From contig JABWAT010000023.1 in the NCBI GenBank assembly GCA_013360915.1, positions 1 to 36,252 on the forward strand: a DNA stretch of 36,252 nucleotides, written 5' to 3'. This document shows, piece by piece, positions 16,510 to 36,252 of the stretch. The notes under the pieces are model-generated. The model was not told the DNA's origin. It saw only the letters and a list, made by a program, of their open reading frames with translations, and did no database searches. The position numbers and the translations under genes were made by a program. Each line of letters opens with the position of its first letter. Positions within the stretch are counted from its first letter, which is position 1. The DNA comes from Bacteroidota bacterium (GTDB taxonomy: Bacteria > Bacteroidota > JABWAT01).

Positions 16510-18003
16510 ATGCTTCAGTTATCCCAGCAGCAAAAACTTCAGCAAAAACTGTCTCCGCAGCAGATTCAGTATATCCGGTTGCTGCAGTTGCCGCAGATTG
16601 CTCTGGAGCAGGCCATCAAAGCCGAGATCGAAATCAATCCGGCCCTGGAGGAAGGACCCGAAAACGAGGCAGAATCGGCCGATGAACCGATGGATGCCGC
16701 CGATTCCGTTCTGGAGTCGATGAAAGAGGAAACACCTGCAGACGATCCCCTGAACGACATTCTTCCACAATCAGACACGCCCTCCTCTTCAGGTGACGAT
16801 GAATTTTCCTGGGAAGACTATATTCAGACCGACGATCTGTACGGATTTAAAACCGATGAGTCCATGGGGCGCGGCGGTGAAGATGAGGACCGGCCGGATT
16901 ATACACCCGTTCAGACGGTGACCTTTCATGACCGGTTATGGGATCAGGTCCGGCTGTTGTCCTTTTCCGAAAAGGAAATGAAGATAGCCGAACACCTGCT
17001 GGGAAGTGCCGATCCCGATGGATACTTGCGGATTGAGCCGGACAAGCTGGCCGACGATTTTGTGTTTAATTATGGCGTTCTGGTGACCCCGGGCGAACTG
17101 GAAAAAGTGAGAAAACAGATTCTGAATCTGGACCCGCCCGGATTTCTCTCCCGCGACTTGCAGGAATGTCTTCTGGTTCAGCTGGAAAACATGGAAGTAA
17201 CCGAAACGTCTGAAAACGCCACCGACATTCTCCGCCATTGTTATGATGAATTCACAAGGAAGCATTTTGATGCCATCATGCGGATGCTTCAGCTCGAGCC
17301 GGATGAGTTGAAACTGGCCTTCGAACTGATCCAGCGTCTGAATCCCAAACCGGGTGAGGATGAAATGTCTCCGGGGTCGAATTATATCACTCCCGACTTT
17401 TTTGTGGAAATCGAAGATGGAGAAGCCCGCATCTCGCTCAATGACCGGGGGATTCCGTCGCTTCGGATCAACAAAAAATACGCCATCATGGCCCGGTTCG
17501 GTCAGGTGGATGAGCAGGCCCGTTCCTTTATCCGGAAAAAGGTTGAGGATGCCAAGTTTTTCCGTCAGTCCATTATTCAGCGGCGCGAAACCATGCTGAA
17601 GGTCATGTCGACCATTGTGGAACAGCAAATGGTCTTTTTTGAAACCGGGTCCGGATTGCGCCCGATGATTCTGAAGGACATTGCCGACCGGATCCGGATG
17701 GATATTTCAACGGTCAGCCGGGTGGTGAACAGCAAGTATGTTCAGACCGAGTTCGGTGTTTACTCACTCAAGCACTTTTTCAGTGAGGGAATCGAAACCG
17801 AATCGGGAGAAGAAGCTTCGAACCGCGAAGTGAAGGAGCGGATCAGAGAAATCATTCAGGCCGAAGACGGAAAGCGGCCGCTCAGTGATGACAAAATTGC
17901 TGACATGCTCAATGAAAAAGGCTACAACATTGCCCGCCGGACGGTGACGAAATACCGCGAATCCATGAACATTCCTGTGGCCCGTCTGCGCAAAACCATC
18001 TGA
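16510..18003 (+). CDS. rpoN: RNA polymerase sigma-54 factor
   Basis: Sigma-54 directs polymerase to -24/-12 promoters that need AAA+ activators. The 497-residue protein has the Gln/Leu-rich region I ([19 protein letters not shown], then [13 protein letters not shown]), an acidic region II (about residues 45-130), the core-binding region, and a helix-turn-helix near [20 protein letters not shown]. The RpoN box [10 protein letters not shown] near the C-terminus contacts the -24 element. All landmarks are in order and the length is normal. The gene sits 8 bases after the DUF3109 gene and 10 bases before hslV, so it is embedded in a proteostasis operon. No sigma-54 activator gene is in the window. 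Confidence 0.96.
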
Positions 18004-30044: not shown

Positions 30045-31001
30045 TCACCAATCGAGCGGACTTTTGACGAGGCGGTTTGAAGCCTGAATCACATGCGTGT
30101 AAATCATGGTGGTTCGTACATCGACATGTCCCATCAGTTCCTGGACTGTTCGGATATCGTAGCCCATTTCGAGCAGATGGGTGGCGTAGGAATGCCGGGA
30201 GGTATGGGAGGAAGCCCGTTTGGTTATGCCGGATTGCCGGATGGCATCGGCGAGGCGTCTCTGAAACGTCGAGGCAAGCAGGTGATGACGGTAGGTTTTC
30301 CCGGAAACCGGATCTTCACTGACTCTGGACATGGGGAATAAAAATTGCCATTTGAAGTCACGGTTTCCCGATTGATACTTCCGGGCATAGGCCTCGGGGA
30401 GCCAGACGGCACCCAATCCCAGTTGCAAATCGGCCTGGTGCATGAGCCGGACTCGTTCGATTTGTTCACGAAGCGGTGCTTGCAGTGAGTCGGGAAGCGG
30501 AACGCGCCGGTCCTTTGATCCCTTGGCATTAAAGACAATGATGCTTCGATTGTCGAAATCGAGGTGCATGATTCTGAGTTGGAGTGCTTCGAGCAGGCGC
30601 AGTCCGCACCCATACAGTAACCGGGTAATAAGAGAGTCATCTCCATCGAGGAATGCGATAATGCGTTTCACTTCTTCGCGAGAGAGGACAGTTGGGGCCC
30701 GGGGAGGTTTTTTGACGAAATGAATTCCATCGATCGGGCCGATCTCTCGTTTGATGACATGCCGGTAGAGGAAGATGAGGGCAGCCAGTGCCTGGTTTTG
30801 GGTGGAGGCGGCGACCTGTTGTTGGTCGGCAAGCCAGTTCAGGTATGTGCGTATTTCGCTTGCCCCCATCTGGTCGGGGTGTTGATTCTTATGGAACCGG
30901 ATGAAATGGAGGATCCATTTCAGATAGGCCTGCTCGGTCCTGAGAGAGAGGTGCTGGACTCTGATGGTTTGCCGGACGGAGAGCAGAAAGGGAGATTTCA
31001 C
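30045..31001 (-). CDS. intI: Integron integrase (IntI-type tyrosine recombinase)
   Basis: The 318-residue enzyme inserts and excises cassettes by attI x attC and attC x attC recombination. It has an N-terminal SAM-like core-binding domain (LRTEQAYLKWILHFIRFH) and the catalytic domain with Arg135 (GCGLRLLEAL), Lys160/163 (AKGSKDRR), His266 and Arg269 (HTSRHSYATHLLE), His292 (GHVDVRTT) and nucleophile Tyr301 (MIYTHV). The IntI-specific insertion that separates integron integrases from XerC/D is present at about 200-222 (WLPEAYARKYQSGNRDFKW). Translation starts at GTG 31001 with a perfect AAGGAGG 7 bases upstream. The motif reads HTSRH where most relatives have HTLRH. The gene is full length, so the integron may be active. 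Confidence 0.96.
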   Translation of the reverse strand: MKSPFLLSVRQTIRVQHLSLRTEQAYLKWILHFIRFHKNQHPDQMGASEIRTYLNWLADQQQVAASTQNQALAALIFLYRHVIKREIGPIDGIHFVKKPPRAPTVLSREEVKRIIAFLDGDDSLITRLLYGCGLRLLEALQLRIMHLDFDNRSIIVFNAKGSKDRRVPLPDSLQAPLREQIERVRLMHQADLQLGLGAVWLPEAYARKYQSGNRDFKWQFLFPMSRVSEDPVSGKTYRHHLLASTFQRRLADAIRQSGITKRASSHTSRHSYATHLLEMGYDIRTVQELMGHVDVRTTMIYTHVIQASNRLVKSPLDW

Positions 31002-31037
31002 GGGATCGCCTCCTTGATACTGCCAATATATGCAGTT

Positions 31038-31066
31038 AAGATTGCGAAATAAGAAGGCATTGTCAA
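31038..31066 (-). promoter_or_regulatory. Candidate intI promoter
   Basis: On the minus strand a perfect TTGACA lies at 31061-31066, and 17 bp further a weak -10 (AATCTT) at 31038-31043, about 37 bases before the intI start. No clear LexA box of the E. coli type (CTGT-N8-ACAG) overlaps it. Confidence 0.4.
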
Positions 31067-31128
31067 GTACTTATAACAGTGGATTGAATGATAAGTACCA
31101 GGGAATTAACCTTATTCTAATGTATATA

Positions 31129-31137
31129 TGTTATAAT
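31129..31137 (+). promoter_or_regulatory. Candidate cassette promoter (Pc) with extended -10
   Basis: TGTTATAAT is a perfect extended -10 element on the plus strand, between intI and the attI core, with no good -35 box. Transcription from about 31144 would cross the attI core and enter cassette 1. The region is AT-rich, so chance occurrence is possible. Confidence 0.45.
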
Positions 31138-31183
31138 TCTCTTATCTTGCAATACGCCCCAATCTCGGGGGTCTAATTAGATA

Positions 31184-31190
31184 GTTAGGC
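31184..31190 (+). other. attI crossover core
   Basis: GTTAGGC at 31184-31190 matches the GTTRRRY core; crossover is expected between G31184 and T31185. It is exactly complementary to the R'' box GCCTAAC of the first attC (31721-31727), showing that TTAGGC is the leading end of cassette 1. The full attI lies upstream in 31070-31184, where further IntI-binding repeats cannot be defined by eye. Confidence 0.85.
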
Positions 31191-31230
31191 CATTTTGCAT
31201 CAGACATTAAGAATTTTCGGAGAGTAAATT

Positions 31231-31719
31231 ATGAAAGCGTTTTTAATAGTATTATTTGCATTGAGTATTTCCTTTTGCAGCGATGACAATGATGAATCAA
31301 ATGGTACCAATAATTTTACTGGTATTACCTACACTAATGAAATCGGTGAAATGGTTGGAAATATTGATAGCACTGACTGGAAACTATTTGTTGTTCATCG
31401 ACCAGGTATATCTGTACCTCCAAATGCACCAAATATTTCACAACCACATCCTGCTTACCCAAATCCAACAACGTCTGTAGTCTCATGTCCTATTGACATT
31501 GGTGAAAATTCGATACTAACAATGGTCGTCAAAAACAACCAGGGTAAAATCCTTCAGAATTTATATAACCATCAACAGTTTGGGGTCGGATTCTATGATG
31601 TTCAAGTCGATTTAGTCTCTTATGAGAATGGGGTCTACCGTATTGAATATGAACTTGTCGTGGGTTCTAAAGTTTATAAAAGTTTCGGTGATGTTGAGGT
31701 AAGAAAAATGGAAAAGTAG
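31231..31719 (+). CDS. Cassette 1: small lipoprotein with FlgD/sorting-domain-like fold
   Basis: The 162-residue product begins MKAFLIVLFALSISFCSDDN, a lipoprotein signal with Cys at about residue 16. After a short linker it contains HPAYPNPTTSVVSCPI and then strands ending GFYDVQVDLVSYENGVYRIEYEL. That order, YPNP then alternating strands then GxY, resembles the FlgD-like/type IX sorting fold common at C-termini of secreted Bacteroidota-type proteins. Here the fold makes up most of a lipidated protein and lacks the usual basic last strand. GGAG lies 9 bases before ATG 31231. The stop lies one base before the attC R'' box, so the cassette is compact. Function unknown; a surface or periplasmic role is inferred. 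Confidence 0.8.
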   Translation: MKAFLIVLFALSISFCSDDNDESNGTNNFTGITYTNEIGEMVGNIDSTDWKLFVVHRPGISVPPNAPNISQPHPAYPNPTTSVVSCPIDIGENSILTMVVKNNQGKILQNLYNHQQFGVGFYDVQVDLVSYENGVYRIEYELVVGSKVYKSFGDVEVRKMEK

Positions 31720-31720
31720 G

Positions 31721-31875
31721 GCCTAACTATCGTTTCATGGCGACAACGCCTTGCTGATGTTTCAGCAAGCCTGTTGTCATTGCAGCCTGATGGCTGGCAG
31801 GTGGTTCGGTTTGGAAGAGCATTGGTTTCAAGGTAGAGTATAGAGAGGCGTTGCGCCTTAAACTTGTTGTTAGGT
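31721..31875 (+). repeat. attC site 1 (155-bp family)
   Basis: R'' GCCTAAC (31721-31727) pairs with R' GTTAGGT (31869-31875). L'' GGCGACAACGCC pairs with L' GGCGTTGCGCC, leaving one unpaired A in L''. Between them lies a long terminal structure with the inner hairpin TTGCTGA/TCAGCAA. Crossover is expected between G31869 and T31870. Confidence 0.93.
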
Positions 31876-31899
31876 ACATTAATTGAAAGGAATCTCTAG

Positions 31900-32679
31900 T
31901 TGAAAACAATAGTCATCTTATTTTTATCAATATTTACGCTTATTGGTTGTTCAGATGAAAATAACCAGGAGGAAATAACTAATGACAACTTGTTAAAGAA
32001 TCGTCTAGTTGAGTTGTTGGGCACCGGTAAATCACCTACTATAGAATACAGATCAAATAATACATATAAACAAACATTTTTTCATTCTGAAAGTAATGAT
32101 TCCAATAGTAACAAATTATGGATGATTGTTGAAGGTAAGTATTCAATAAATAATGCAGAATTAAAAATTGAGAATGGTACCGTTGTTTATATCGATTCCC
32201 TTGTTTCATATTTTGGTTGGCAAATCATTTTTACCCATGAAATAGAATTAAAATTAAGTGGTAATCAGTTATTAATGACACCTGTTAAAGTATTCACATC
32301 TGAAACAGGATCAAAAACTGAATTGTGGGGGCGATGGTCGCATACAAGCTGGACAATTAGTTATCGCAATCAAATAATTATCTATGAAGGAAGACAGACG
32401 GAAACATATACATTCAATAAAGATTCCTCCCAAATATATTTTTCCTTTGACTATTCAGAAAAAAATATCTTTGATCCATATTCTGGAAAAAGTGATTTCA
32501 TATATAATCCTCCATTACTTTCAATTGATGCCACAACTGAGAATATTCAAAACGTAACTTTCAAAAATGGGAAAATGTATTGGTATTACGATCTCAAGCC
32601 GAATATACTAGGTAAAGATTATCAATTAAATAATTCAGAAGTTTTACAACCATTTTCTTTAAAAACGTGGGAGAACTAA
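31900..32679 (+). CDS. Cassette 2: lipoprotein of unknown family
   Basis: The 259-residue protein starts at TTG 31900, 30 bases into the cassette, with AAAGGA upstream. It begins MKTIVILFLSIFTLIGCSDEN, a textbook lipoprotein signal with lipobox LIGC. The mature part is rich in Asn, Ser and aromatic residues, with alternating strands such as YSINNAELKIENGTVVYIDS and TYTFNKDSSQIYFSFDYS. It resembles lipocalin-like or META-like small beta-barrel lipoproteins in general character, but I cannot assign a family. Codon use is much more AT-rich than in the chromosomal genes. Periplasmic or outer-membrane location is inferred from the signal. Confidence 0.78.
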   Translation: MKTIVILFLSIFTLIGCSDENNQEEITNDNLLKNRLVELLGTGKSPTIEYRSNNTYKQTFFHSESNDSNSNKLWMIVEGKYSINNAELKIENGTVVYIDSLVSYFGWQIIFTHEIELKLSGNQLLMTPVKVFTSETGSKTELWGRWSHTSWTISYRNQIIIYEGRQTETYTFNKDSSQIYFSFDYSEKNIFDPYSGKSDFIYNPPLLSIDATTENIQNVTFKNGKMYWYYDLKPNILGKDYQLNNSEVLQPFSLKTWEN

Positions 32680-32701
32680 TATTATTCTAAACATATAATA
32701 T

Positions 32702-32856
32702 ACCTAACTATCGTTTCATGGCGACAACGCCTTGCTGAGGTTTCAACAAGCCTGTTTTCGTTGCAGCCTAATGGCTGGTCGGTGGTTCAGTTTGGAAGAG
32801 CATTGGTTTCAAGGTAGAGTATCGAGCGGCGTTGCGCCATAAACTTGTTGTTATAT
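32702..32856 (+). repeat. attC site 2 (155-bp family)
   Basis: R'' ACCTAAC (32702-32708) pairs with the first bases TTAGGT of its own cassette. R' is GTTATAT (32850-32856), contributed by cassette 3. L'' GGCGACAACGCC and L' GGCGTTGCGCC are identical to those of attC 1. Small differences lie in the terminal structure, for example TTTCAACAAG for TTTCAGCAAG. Confidence 0.93.
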
Positions 32857-32876
32857 TTTATTGGTGATGGAATATT

Positions 32877-33407
32877 ATGAGGTTCCTGGTAATTGTTTCT
32901 GCTCTGTTTCTAACTCTTTCTTGCAGTGATTCTGAAGTGGATGTTGAATACCCAAATGGTATTACAAAACCTGAATCAGTTTCAAAGAGCGGTGGGTGTG
33001 GAAATTTGGAGGTCTATCAATATATAAATGAAACATCTGCAATCGTAGTAAATATAAACGCTAACTCCGTGCAATTAACTAAAAAACTCACCGAATTTAA
33101 CTTGACAGGTGGCGATGAAAATATTTCCATTAGCTATCTTATAGCTGGAAATAGTACTGACAGCATTTATTTTAATTTTTGCAATGATATAGCCTACCCA
33201 AATATGGGTAAAAATAAAGTGTATAAGGCTCATGCAGGGAACGTATTCGTAACCGCTTCAAAGGACTTGAAAAAAGGAGAAGTCACAATGTACAAGGTTA
33301 CAATTCGTATCACTGATGTTTACCTTAAAAATATGGAAACTAATGAAAGTATATTTTTTTCAGAAATAATTTATTGGGATGTATTTGTCGGATGGTTTCC
33401 TGGTTAA
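32877..33407 (+). CDS. Cassette 3: lipoprotein of unknown family
   Basis: The 176-residue protein begins MRFLVIVSALFLTLSCSDSE, with a lipobox LSC at about residue 16. The mature part has several cysteines (KSGGCGNLEVY, YFNFCNDIAY) and strand-rich segments (VTMYKVTIRITDVYLKN). I do not recognise the family. It starts 26 bases into the cassette without a strong ribosome site, which is common for cassette genes. The signal peptide and cysteines point to an envelope protein. It shares no evident similarity with the lipoproteins of cassettes 1 and 2 beyond the signal. Confidence 0.77.
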   Translation: MRFLVIVSALFLTLSCSDSEVDVEYPNGITKPESVSKSGGCGNLEVYQYINETSAIVVNINANSVQLTKKLTEFNLTGGDENISISYLIAGNSTDSIYFNFCNDIAYPNMGKNKVYKAHAGNVFVTASKDLKKGEVTMYKVTIRITDVYLKNMETNESIFFSEIIYWDVFVGWFPG

Positions 33408-33457
33408 TAATCGAAGGTTGATTTTGATTATTCCTTTTTGAATGAAGAGTCAATAAA

Positions 33458-33612
33458 ATATAACTATCGTTTCATGGCGACAACGCCTTGCTGAGGTTTC
33501 AGCAAGCCTGTTGTCGTTGCAGCCTAACGGCTGGCAGGTGGTTCGGTTTGGAAGAGCTTTGGTTTCAAGGTAGAGTATAGAGAGGCGTTGCGCCATAAAC
33601 TTGTTGTTATAT
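33458..33612 (+). repeat. attC site 3 (155-bp family)
   Basis: R'' ATATAAC (33458-33464) matches the first bases TTATAT of its cassette. R' is GTTATAT (33606-33612). The L boxes and the unpaired A are as in attC 1 and 2. The body is nearly identical to attC 1. Confidence 0.93.
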
Positions 33613-33700
33613 TTATAGAACGAATACACGGAAAAAAAATAAAATTAAACTTATATGAAAGATTTATTTATATAATTTTCGAATAAAATAGAAGTAAATC

Positions 33701-34039
33701 ATGGAAAAGAAAAAACTATACTTTTTATATGACACAATTATAAGTTATGAAGAAGGTCATAAAAGTGGTGGGGCTAGAGGGATTAAAATATTACAAGATA
33801 AAGTTACTTTTATAGCCTTTGATGATTATGATAATGCTTTACAATTCAAGGAAAAAATAAAATTTGATGGGATTATTATTGAGGCAGAAAAATATGGAAC
33901 ACTTGAGTATCCAGTTTTATACGTAAAAGATAAAACATATATTTTACTTTTTAATAAAGAATCGCTTGAACTATATGAAAAAAAAGAATTTGATAAATTA
34001 AAGGATTATGTATTTGAATATAAGAGTACTAATCCATAA
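33701..34039 (+). CDS. Cassette 4: hypothetical protein, 112 residues
   Basis: This small, charged protein (Lys/Glu/Tyr-rich) begins MEKKKLYFLYDTIISYEEGH and has no signal peptide or membrane segment, so it is probably cytoplasmic. It alternates short strands and helices (KVTFIAFDDYDNALQFKEKI, then YPVLYVKDKTYILLFNKESL). I do not recognise the family. Unlike the other cassettes it has a 94-base leader, which contains a TATAAT at 33671-33676 and could carry its own promoter, although the AT-rich leader makes chance likely. The stop lies one base before the attC R'' box. Confidence 0.65.
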   Translation: MEKKKLYFLYDTIISYEEGHKSGGARGIKILQDKVTFIAFDDYDNALQFKEKIKFDGIIIEAEKYGTLEYPVLYVKDKTYILLFNKESLELYEKKEFDKLKDYVFEYKSTNP

Positions 34040-34040
34040 A

Positions 34041-34162
34041 ATCTAACAATCACTTTCACGCCGACGACTATGCGTAGCGATTGGCGGAGTTAGTTGTGAG
34101 GTTACAAAAGTTCGTTTTCAAACTGTCGTGAGTGAAGTTGCGTCGTAAATTGGTGGTTAGAA
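34041..34162 (+). repeat. attC site 4 (divergent, 122 bp)
   Basis: R'' ATCTAAC (34041-34047) and R' GTTAGAA (34156-34162) bound a shorter and different site. The inner arms CGCCGACGAC and GTTGCGTCG (complement CGACGCAAC) pair with mismatches and again leave an extra A. R'' does not match the start TTATAT of its own cassette (one mismatch in six), unlike attC 1-3. Confidence 0.8.
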
Positions 34163-34171
34163 TTGAATCAA

Positions 34172-34951
34172 ATGGAACCTTTAGAATATAGCAAACAGTT
34201 CAGTTTAGAAACATTCACACTTCTCTTTGCTAAAGTATTATTTATTGAATTACTAGTATTAGCATTATTAATAATTCTATTTATTCTTTTATTTAGAAAA
34301 AGTATATATGTGTTTAGGACAATATTGGAATTTATAGGACTACTATTCCTAATTGATATTATTCATACTGGTATTTCACTTCAAATAGCTAGCAATTATA
34401 AATATCAGTATTGCAATTCACATGAACACAATTATCCGTCTATTTATAAAATAGCAACTATATATGAGGATGTTGGGAGAATTGACACATTCCATACAAA
34501 TTATCTTAATATCTATGGACTGGGACCTAAGGTAGGGGACAAATTGTTGGAGGATATTAATTTTCTTGATTAATTTTGCAACACCTACCAAATTGATGTC
34601 TGTGTAAAAAAGACACCGCTGAGGACACAACAAACATACTATTTTAAGCAAAAATATTATCCTATTCTTATAAGACTTCCGGATAGTGTTCTAGCAGTGG
34701 CCTTGTACAAAAATAAGCGCCTTTTTTTGACTTTTTACACAAAGTATAAGTATTCCAAAGAAGACTATTCTAAATCTATTATTTGGCTAAGAAAGTGGGC
34801 AAAGATAAGAGAAATAGATGATGTTGAATTGATCGTGGATAATCGTTCTCCTGCGCCTGTGGTAAATAATCACATTGATGCAAAATATAATTTAAGAAAC
34901 ACATTACTGGATTTAACGGTAAGCGCAATAGGTCGTCTTGGAGAAAAGTGA
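34172..34951 (+). pseudogene. Cassette 5: two-helix membrane protein interrupted by an in-frame TAA
   Basis: From ATG 34172 (an in-frame TTG at 34163 is also possible) the frame gives 133 residues and stops at TAA 34571-34573. It then continues open in the same frame to TGA 34949-34951. The two parts align end to end with the 258-residue product of cassette 6. Shared stretches are LDIIHTGIS (here IDIIHTGIS), YYLNLYGIGPK (here NYLNIYGLGPK), KTPVRLRQYYY (here KTPLRTQQTYY), SAAPVVN (here SPAPVVN) and the ending RLGEK. A single Lys AAA-to-TAA change explains the break. Two hydrophobic segments lie within the first 75 residues. Function unknown; a 133-residue membrane-only form could still be made. 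Confidence 0.85.
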
Positions 34952-34956
34952 TTCCA

Positions 34957-35100
34957 ATATAACTATCGTTTCACGCGGACGCTGCCATCAGTGCCTTCGG
35001 CAGGTCCGGTCGGGAAGGTAGTTTTGTGCTCAAGGGTTTGGGGTTAGTGGTTTCTGGAAAGTTCGGTCGCAGGCAGCGCCGCTTAAACTAAGCGTTAGAA
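34957..35100 (+). repeat. attC site 5 (144-bp family)
   Basis: R'' ATATAAC (34957-34963) and R' GTTAGAA (35094-35100) flank L'' GCGGACGCTGCC and L' GGCAGCGCCGC, which pair perfectly except for one extra A in L''. The R'' box does not match the first bases TTAGAA of its own cassette, but does match those of cassette 4. Confidence 0.92.
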
Positions 35101-35877
35101 ATGAAAATAATGGAACAATCGGGGTTTGTTACTGAAATATTTGCACAACTATTTTGGAAGAGTTCATTCTTTGAAGTTCTTGCGTTTTTATTATTATTGT
35201 CAATTGGAGCATTTTTATTTTTCAAGAAGAAAAGAAAGTTTGTGGTATTTATTGCTGTTACTTTAATTATTTTATCATTAGATATAATTCATACCGGGAT
35301 ATCTGTCTGGAAAGCAAGTATAATTCTACTAGATAGAAATGATTCAAATATTTCATTTTATCCTTCAATTTATCGTGATAAAATTATTCGGGAGGAGAAT
35401 TATAGTATAGATACAGTTTATTCATATTATCTAAATCTTTACGGTATTGGCCCCAAAGAAAGTATGTCTTTTATTCGTAATGTAAGCTTCATTAATAAAT
35501 TTACTAGCACATACTTAATTTCCTTTCGTGTTGAGAAGACCCCCGTCCGTTTGAGACAATATTATTATATAAAGCAAAAACAATATCCGTATTATTTGAG
35601 ATATACTGATACTGATTTGGTAATGGCTACTTTTAAAGATAGGCGTTTAGAATTCAAGATTTATACAAATAATTTGTATTCACAAGAGGTTTATCTTCAA
35701 GCAATCTCTCATTTAAAAAGTTGGGTGAACAACGCGGATATTTTGGATATTTCAATTGTAATGGAAAAATATTCTGCTGCACCAGTTGTTAATGCTCAAG
35801 TCGGAGTACTTTTAAATGATGATAACGCTTTGCGTGATTTAACTGTAAACACATTGGTTCGTCTTGGAGAAAAGTGA
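35101..35877 (+). CDS. Cassette 6: two-helix membrane protein of unknown family (intact paralogue of cassette 5)
   Basis: The 258-residue protein starts at ATG 35101, directly after the attC R' box; a second ATG at 35110 is also possible. It has two transmembrane helices, FFEVLAFLLLLSIGAFLFF and FVVFIAVTLIILSLDIIHTG, within the first 70 residues, then a soluble, charged part of about 185 residues. This contains YYLNLYGIGPKESM, KTPVRLRQYYYIKQ, LKSWVNNADI and the C-terminal APVVNAQVG and TLVRLGEK segments. These are the parts conserved with cassette 5, so they probably mark the functional core. I recognise no known domain. There is no lipobox, and the protein is probably in the inner membrane. 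Confidence 0.8.
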   Translation: MKIMEQSGFVTEIFAQLFWKSSFFEVLAFLLLLSIGAFLFFKKKRKFVVFIAVTLIILSLDIIHTGISVWKASIILLDRNDSNISFYPSIYRDKIIREENYSIDTVYSYYLNLYGIGPKESMSFIRNVSFINKFTSTYLISFRVEKTPVRLRQYYYIKQKQYPYYLRYTDTDLVMATFKDRRLEFKIYTNNLYSQEVYLQAISHLKSWVNNADILDISIVMEKYSAAPVVNAQVGVLLNDDNALRDLTVNTLVRLGEK

Positions 35878-35882
35878 TTCAT

Positions 35883-36026
35883 TTCTAACTATCGTTTCAC
35901 GCGGACGCTGCCATCTGTGCCTTCGGCTGGTCCGGTTGGGAAGGTAGGTTGGTATGTGAGGGTTTAAAGTTAGTGGTTTCGGGAAAACGCGGTTGCAGGC
36001 AGCGCCGCTTAAACTAAGTGTTAGGA
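35883..36026 (+). repeat. attC site 6 (144-bp family)
   Basis: R'' TTCTAAC (35883-35889) is exactly complementary to the first bases TTAGAA of its cassette. R' is GTTAGGA (36020-36026). L'' GCGGACGCTGCC and L' GGCAGCGCCGC are identical to attC 5. Confidence 0.93.
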
Positions 36027-36033
36027 AATTAAA

Positions 36034-36252
36034 GTGTCAGTACCAGACTATCAGTCTTTAATGTTGCCACTGCTCCAACTCTTGGGTGATGGTAAAGAGT
36101 ATAAGTTCCGCGAACTTTGTGATTCTCTTGCTGTTAAGCTCGGTATAAGTGAATCTGAAAGGAAGGAAATGCTTCCAAGTGGTGCTCAGACCATCTTCGA
36201 TAACAGGACTGCCTGGGCTAAAACTTACATGAAGAAGGCAGGACTTTTAGAC
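36034..36252 (+). CDS. Cassette 7: N-terminal winged-helix domain of an Mrr-type restriction protein (partial)
   Basis: The gene starts at GTG 36034, 13 bases into the cassette, and runs off the window after 73 codons. The visible part reads VPDYQSLMLPLLQLLGDGKE, then REL...ESERKEMLPSGAQTIFDNR and AWAKTYMKKAGLLD. This is the N-terminal DNA-binding domain of Mrr-type restriction endonucleases (Mrr_N), including the LPSG and FDNRxxWAxTYLxKAG signatures. In complete members a PD-(D/E)XK nuclease domain follows and cuts modified DNA. Whether that domain is present here lies beyond the window. The GTG start is chosen because the family begins a few residues before PDYQ; the next ATG at 36061 would cut the domain. 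Confidence 0.88.
   Translation, partial: MSVPDYQSLMLPLLQLLGDGKEYKFRELCDSLAVKLGISESERKEMLPSGAQTIFDNRTAWAKTYMKKAGLLD

Follow-up and report, generated by a model that had tools for sequence, protein, structure and literature searches.

Towards the right-hand end of the window, the 36,252-nucleotide stretch of DNA analysed here, lie an integrase gene, intI (30045..31001, minus strand), an adjoining attI region, and six attC sites that separate seven cassettes read on the plus strand. Together these make up an integron, a system through which bacteria capture small gene cassettes and shuffle them. The window is the entire contig C23, one of 51 contigs in a genome of 3.65 Mb, and its seventh cassette is therefore cut by the contig end, as the original prediction had said in stating that the array runs off the window. 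The same prediction called the integron complete, which holds for the presence of intI, attI and attC and fails for the array itself, whose end lies off the contig.

The intI gene encodes an intact integrase of 318 aa from a GTG start that is preceded by an AGGAGG Shine-Dalgarno sequence. The protein matched the TIGR02249 integron integrase model at 414 bits (E 3.5e-124; cut-off 265) and aligned end to end with PDB 2a3v, the IntI4 structure (E 9.4e-78). All six catalytic positions were conserved in alignment, such that R146, K171, H277, R280, H303 and Y312 of IntI1 correspond to R135, K160, H266, R269, H292 and Y301 of the window protein. Similarly, the IntI-specific patch III insertion was present in the window protein and absent from the XerA/XerB proteins of its own genome. 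The intact gene, full catalytic set and IntI-specific insertion described from the sequence at the outset were thus all recovered. A phylogeny placing the recombinase with XerC/XerD had been named as grounds for abandoning the assignment; in our maximum-likelihood tree the window protein instead grouped with the IntI of one genome of the same family (G001; support 100) and then with those of the other two same-family genomes (support 97), while the Xer-type proteins of its own genome fell outside all IntIs (support 100). The host genome holds no other full IntI.

The attI region (31002..31190, plus strand) ends in the core GTTAGGC at 31184-31190, as originally predicted, with the insertion point at G|TT. 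This core conforms to the GTTRRRY consensus expected beside intI; the limits of attI rest on this one core site, and the bounds on the intI side are inferred. Comparison with the corresponding regions of sister genera yielded no bounds because those regions diverge.

The six attC sites, all on the plus strand, were scored with a covariance model that was built from these same sites, so that their scores are high by construction: attC1 (31719..31875; 149 bits), attC2 (32700..32856; 153 bits) and attC3 (33456..33612; 156 bits) belong to family A, attC5 (34955..35100; 139 bits) and attC6 (35881..36026; 144 bits) to family B, and attC4 (34039..34162; 88 bits) represents a third, divergent type with 64-73% identity to the other attCs of the window. 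The R'' (TAAC) and R' (GTTA) cores are invariant across all six. An integron is expected to hold two or more attCs spaced by under 4 kb, each built from R''-L''/L'-R' arms with extrahelical bases, and all six sites have this form; on the L'' arm of the L stem, two positions are invariantly unpaired and correspond to the known extrahelical bases (PMC2727003). When the arm structure, which was named by hand, was scored, 95.8% of the arm positions paired, as compared to 87.0% in shuffled sites (0 of 500 shuffles reached the observed value) and 33-53% when the arms were slid. Moreover, six pairs in the arms were altered on both sides among the six sites.

Against the whole 3.65 Mb genome, the model returned the six window attCs as its top matches, and the other matches below E = 0.1 were found only on contigs C4 and C11. 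This recovery agrees with the covariance-model check proposed at the outset, although with a model trained on its own targets the independent support comes from the covariation of the arms and from matches in other genomes. For example, the model also found sites in the sister genomes G002 and G003, which carry related arrays. An Rfam search of the window gave no match at the gathering threshold. With paired, covarying arms in six sites and seven cassettes around them, the claim of at least six attCs separating seven plus-strand cassettes stands. The description of these sites as mostly of two near-identical families stands only in part: there are two families, but identity is 90-94% within family A and 85% within family B, and attC4 belongs to neither.

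All seven cassettes carry a plus-strand reading frame. Cassette 1 encodes a predicted lipoprotein of 162 aa (31231..31719) with a lipobox-like N-terminus, recognised by eye, and a C-terminus that weakly resembles a T9SS sorting domain (Por_Secre_tail, E 9e-4, below the gathering cut-off). Cassettes 2 (31900..32679; 259 aa, TTG start) and 3 (32877..33407; 176 aa) likewise encode predicted lipoproteins whose lipoboxes were identified by eye, cassette 4 (33701..34039) encodes 112 aa at 24% GC, and cassette 6 (35101..35877) encodes a membrane-protein-like product of 258 aa. Family and domain profile searches assigned no protein family to cassettes 2, 3 and 6. Cassette 5 (34163..34951) is a pseudogene, a broken relative of cassette 6 whose membrane-protein-like frame is 39% identical to the cassette 6 protein and interrupted by one in-frame TAA at 34571; among 394 genomes, cassette 5 and one weak match were the only relatives of the cassette 6 protein. 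Cassette 7 (36034..36252) encodes the first 73 residues of an Mrr-like restriction enzyme of type IV (Mrr_N, E 2.2e-24; PADLOC mREase_IV, E 2.3e-16), and the Mrr catalytic domain that would form its missing half was not found elsewhere in the assembly. The GC content of the cassettes is 24-36%, versus about 49-54% in the remaining window.

Four of the six complete cassettes begin with bases complementary to their own R'' end. The match spans 8 nt in cassettes 1 and 2, 14 nt in cassette 3 and 12 nt in cassette 6, and is the exact own-end match originally reported for these four; cassettes 4 and 5 match their own R'' ends over only 4 nt. For 26 cassettes drawn from G002, G003, G025, G053 and the window's own genome, none of 20,000 permutations reached the own-end matching observed at positions 8-20. 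The cassette-end counts for the window do not rely on our home-made attC scanner, which set R' at the wrong position in two of the window's sites. Self-complementary cassette ends as long as 8-15 nt were also considered as a novelty and rejected, as pairing past the 7-nt R boxes, to 9-11 nt, was described earlier (PMC2727003) and the mode in Gemmatirosa is 11 nt; only matches of 12-15 nt, the upper end of the range here, are slightly longer than those known. The end of cassette 4 (GTTAGATTTTATGG in reverse complement; window 34034-34047) does not complement its own start; over 13-14 nt it complements instead the first bases of two contig C4 cassettes (L063 94-107 and 777-790), which suggests a past rearrangement of cassettes. 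More generally, the broken gene in cassette 5 and the mismatched ends of cassettes 4 and 5 indicate that some of the array is old or has been rearranged.

Contig C4 starts inside a truncated family B attC with 82-83% identity to attC5-6, and its first 2.65 kb (L063 1-2650) contain two further intact-looking attCs, a terminal site that is degenerate and another that is half-decayed (at about 1327), along with cassettes of lipoprotein and membrane-protein genes. Therefore, the array probably continues on C4 across a gap that would span at least the rest of cassette 7. A check on whether the flank of C4 lies beside htrA in the sister genomes, which would have favoured the join of C23 and C4, was uninformative because the C4 flank gene that was compared had no relative in those genomes. 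On contig C11 there is a solitary attC with a degenerate R' (L064 16596-16741, minus strand) and a second, decayed attC-like stretch (about 17360-17485, minus strand); these adjoin a phosphofructokinase-like gene far from intI and form a small cassette cluster that has no integrase.

A chromosomal location and an FCB-type genome had both been proposed, and both fit the wider setting. The contig carries genes that we take, from their sequences by eye and from general knowledge, to be homologues of recO, htrA, hslVU and aceEF, and the recO-htrA adjacency is conserved in three sister-genus genomes. As to the lineage, a genome of the same phylum (G006) shares 10,840 bp of identical sequence with the metagenome-assembled genome 'Bacteroidia bacterium HBSIN02', and the host is an environmental Bacteroidota-group bacterium. 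A sedentary integron would be expected to have a large array of highly similar attCs; up to the contig end there are six, of which five fall into two families of 85-94% identity and one is divergent. That the array is sedentary, as originally proposed, is plausible.

Just upstream of intI is a LexA-box-like palindrome, CTGCATATATTGGCAG (31020..31035, minus strand), a predicted SOS operator. In each of the four family genomes, namely that of the window and three same-family relatives, the motif CTGY-N8-RCAG occurs upstream of intI, of lexA and of recA. The density of its strict form in the sampled sequence is about 0.02 per kb. By matrix scoring, the window palindrome ranked third among 312,029 16-mers of its own genome, with the palindrome itself excluded from the matrix and the sister intI sites included. 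LexA scored over the cut-off in each of the four genomes. Therefore, from the palindromes shared by intI, lexA and recA and from the presence of LexA, intI is predicted to be under SOS control. The window palindrome, CTGC...GCAG, has one letter changed in each outer half-site, and LexA may thus bind it weakly. A sigma-70 promoter scan performed at chance level. Two LexA-C-terminal-like matches below the cut-off in the window's genome (G000:C33:163-522 and G000:C9:2173-2532) are perhaps phage repressors or UmuD-like proteins. The text of a published survey of LexA sites at intI makes no mention of Bacteroidetes or Chlorobi (PMC3108266).

At this locus the integrase gene is intact and keeps its catalytic residues, an attI core is present, the attC arms pair and covary, most complete cassettes match their own ends, and the operator-like palindrome is conserved. 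It is therefore almost certain that the window holds a chromosomal integron of classical layout. It is a genuine integron, one more member of a kind of system that is already known (PMC9668308) and not a new kind. By analogy with known integrons, from which we infer strand choice, chemistry, SOS induction and cassette capture, intI would be transcribed leftward from a promoter with the predicted LexA operator, and DNA damage would inactivate LexA and allow IntI to be made. The integrase would then bind attI in double-stranded form and attC as a folded bottom strand, recognising the latter via two extrahelical bases in the L/R stem, and would join incoming circular cassettes at G|TT beside intI, while exchange between attC sites would excise cassettes.

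Other readings of the locus deserve consideration. A XerC/D- or phage-type tyrosine recombinase lying beside unrelated repeats, with no integron at all, would share the Phage_integrase domain that is present here, and XerC/XerD models do match the window protein (144-146 bits, E about 1e-42). However, these scores stand far below the 414 bits of the IntI model, the patch III insertion is present, the split from the Xer-type proteins of the same genome is fully supported, and six structured, covarying attCs lie downstream; this identity is refuted by the tree together with the attC structure, and we give it next to no credence. Recent arrival of the integron on a mobile carrier, either a transposon or a plasmid, is very improbable. 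The intI genes of three sister-genus genomes are located on contigs other than the recO-htrA contig, and the location is therefore not conserved, as one might expect of a mobile element, yet the window IntI groups with the other IntIs of its family, housekeeping genes share its contig, and no transposase was recognised among the inspected ORFs around the integron.

Somewhat less improbable, though still unlikely, is a relic in which intI is intact while the array decays and is no longer shuffled. The nonsense codon in cassette 5, the mismatched ends of cassettes 4 and 5, and the decayed attC-like sites on C4 and C11 are all in keeping with such a state. On the other side stand the full-length intI with its conserved operator-like site and Shine-Dalgarno sequence, and the perfect own-end matches of 8-14 nt in four of the six complete cassettes. 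We thus return to a chromosomal integron that, judging from its intact gene, intact sites and conserved promoter element, is apparently functional.

This integron resembles the chromosomal, sedentary superintegrons of Vibrio in its divergent intI, its attI, its array of cassettes that mostly carry one gene each and share one orientation, the likeness of attCs within the array, and the SOS-type operator at intI, which is predicted here. It differs in that few cassettes are seen (six complete and one cut, with perhaps 3-4 more on C4), in its Bacteroidota-group host, and in having two attC families rather than one repeat. Similarly, V. cholerae IntI4/IntIA (PDB 2a3v) shares the full-length alignment, the catalytic residues and the patch III region, but is distant in sequence and its host's attC repeats differ. 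The plasmid integron of Gemmatirosa kalamazoonensis (NZ_CP007129.1) has an IntI that is 49.5% identical and cassettes that match their own ends; it lies on a 1.1 Mb replicon, and its cassettes are located beyond the 3' end of intI as opposed to the 5' end here. That integron, on plasmid 1 (L118 16622-30369), comprises over 20 attCs and at least 25 attC-like sites. Its own-end matches have a mode of exactly 11 nt and fall sharply at position 12, near the length of a tyrosine-recombinase binding arm. Integrons have been reported from the Bacteroidetes/Chlorobi group, including Chlorobi, Ignavibacteriae and Salinibacter ruber M1 (PMC9024848). Those too are complete integrons in the same broad lineage, but from a different family.

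Across the phylum, 394 genomes were sampled, of which 105 have an IntI that exceeds the curated cut-off, with matches in 53 of 170 genera. Several of the sampled genomes have two or three IntI copies, some of which bear internal stops. Integron biology is known mainly from Proteobacteria. What is added here is the predicted SOS operator in the family of the host and the high frequency of IntI in the phylum sample. On balance we favour the view, with reasonable but far from full confidence, that this phylum is a major, under-described reservoir of integrons, and that, as in Vibrio, the integrase of this family is under SOS control via a LexA box resembling that of E. coli. The cargo consists mostly of uncharacterised, predicted lipoproteins and membrane-type proteins, together with one enzyme that is predicted to be a restriction enzyme and is probably directed against phage. 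A well-preserved integron of the Bacteroidota group that is apparently SOS-controlled offers a second setting in which to test the regulation of integrases and the origin of cassettes.
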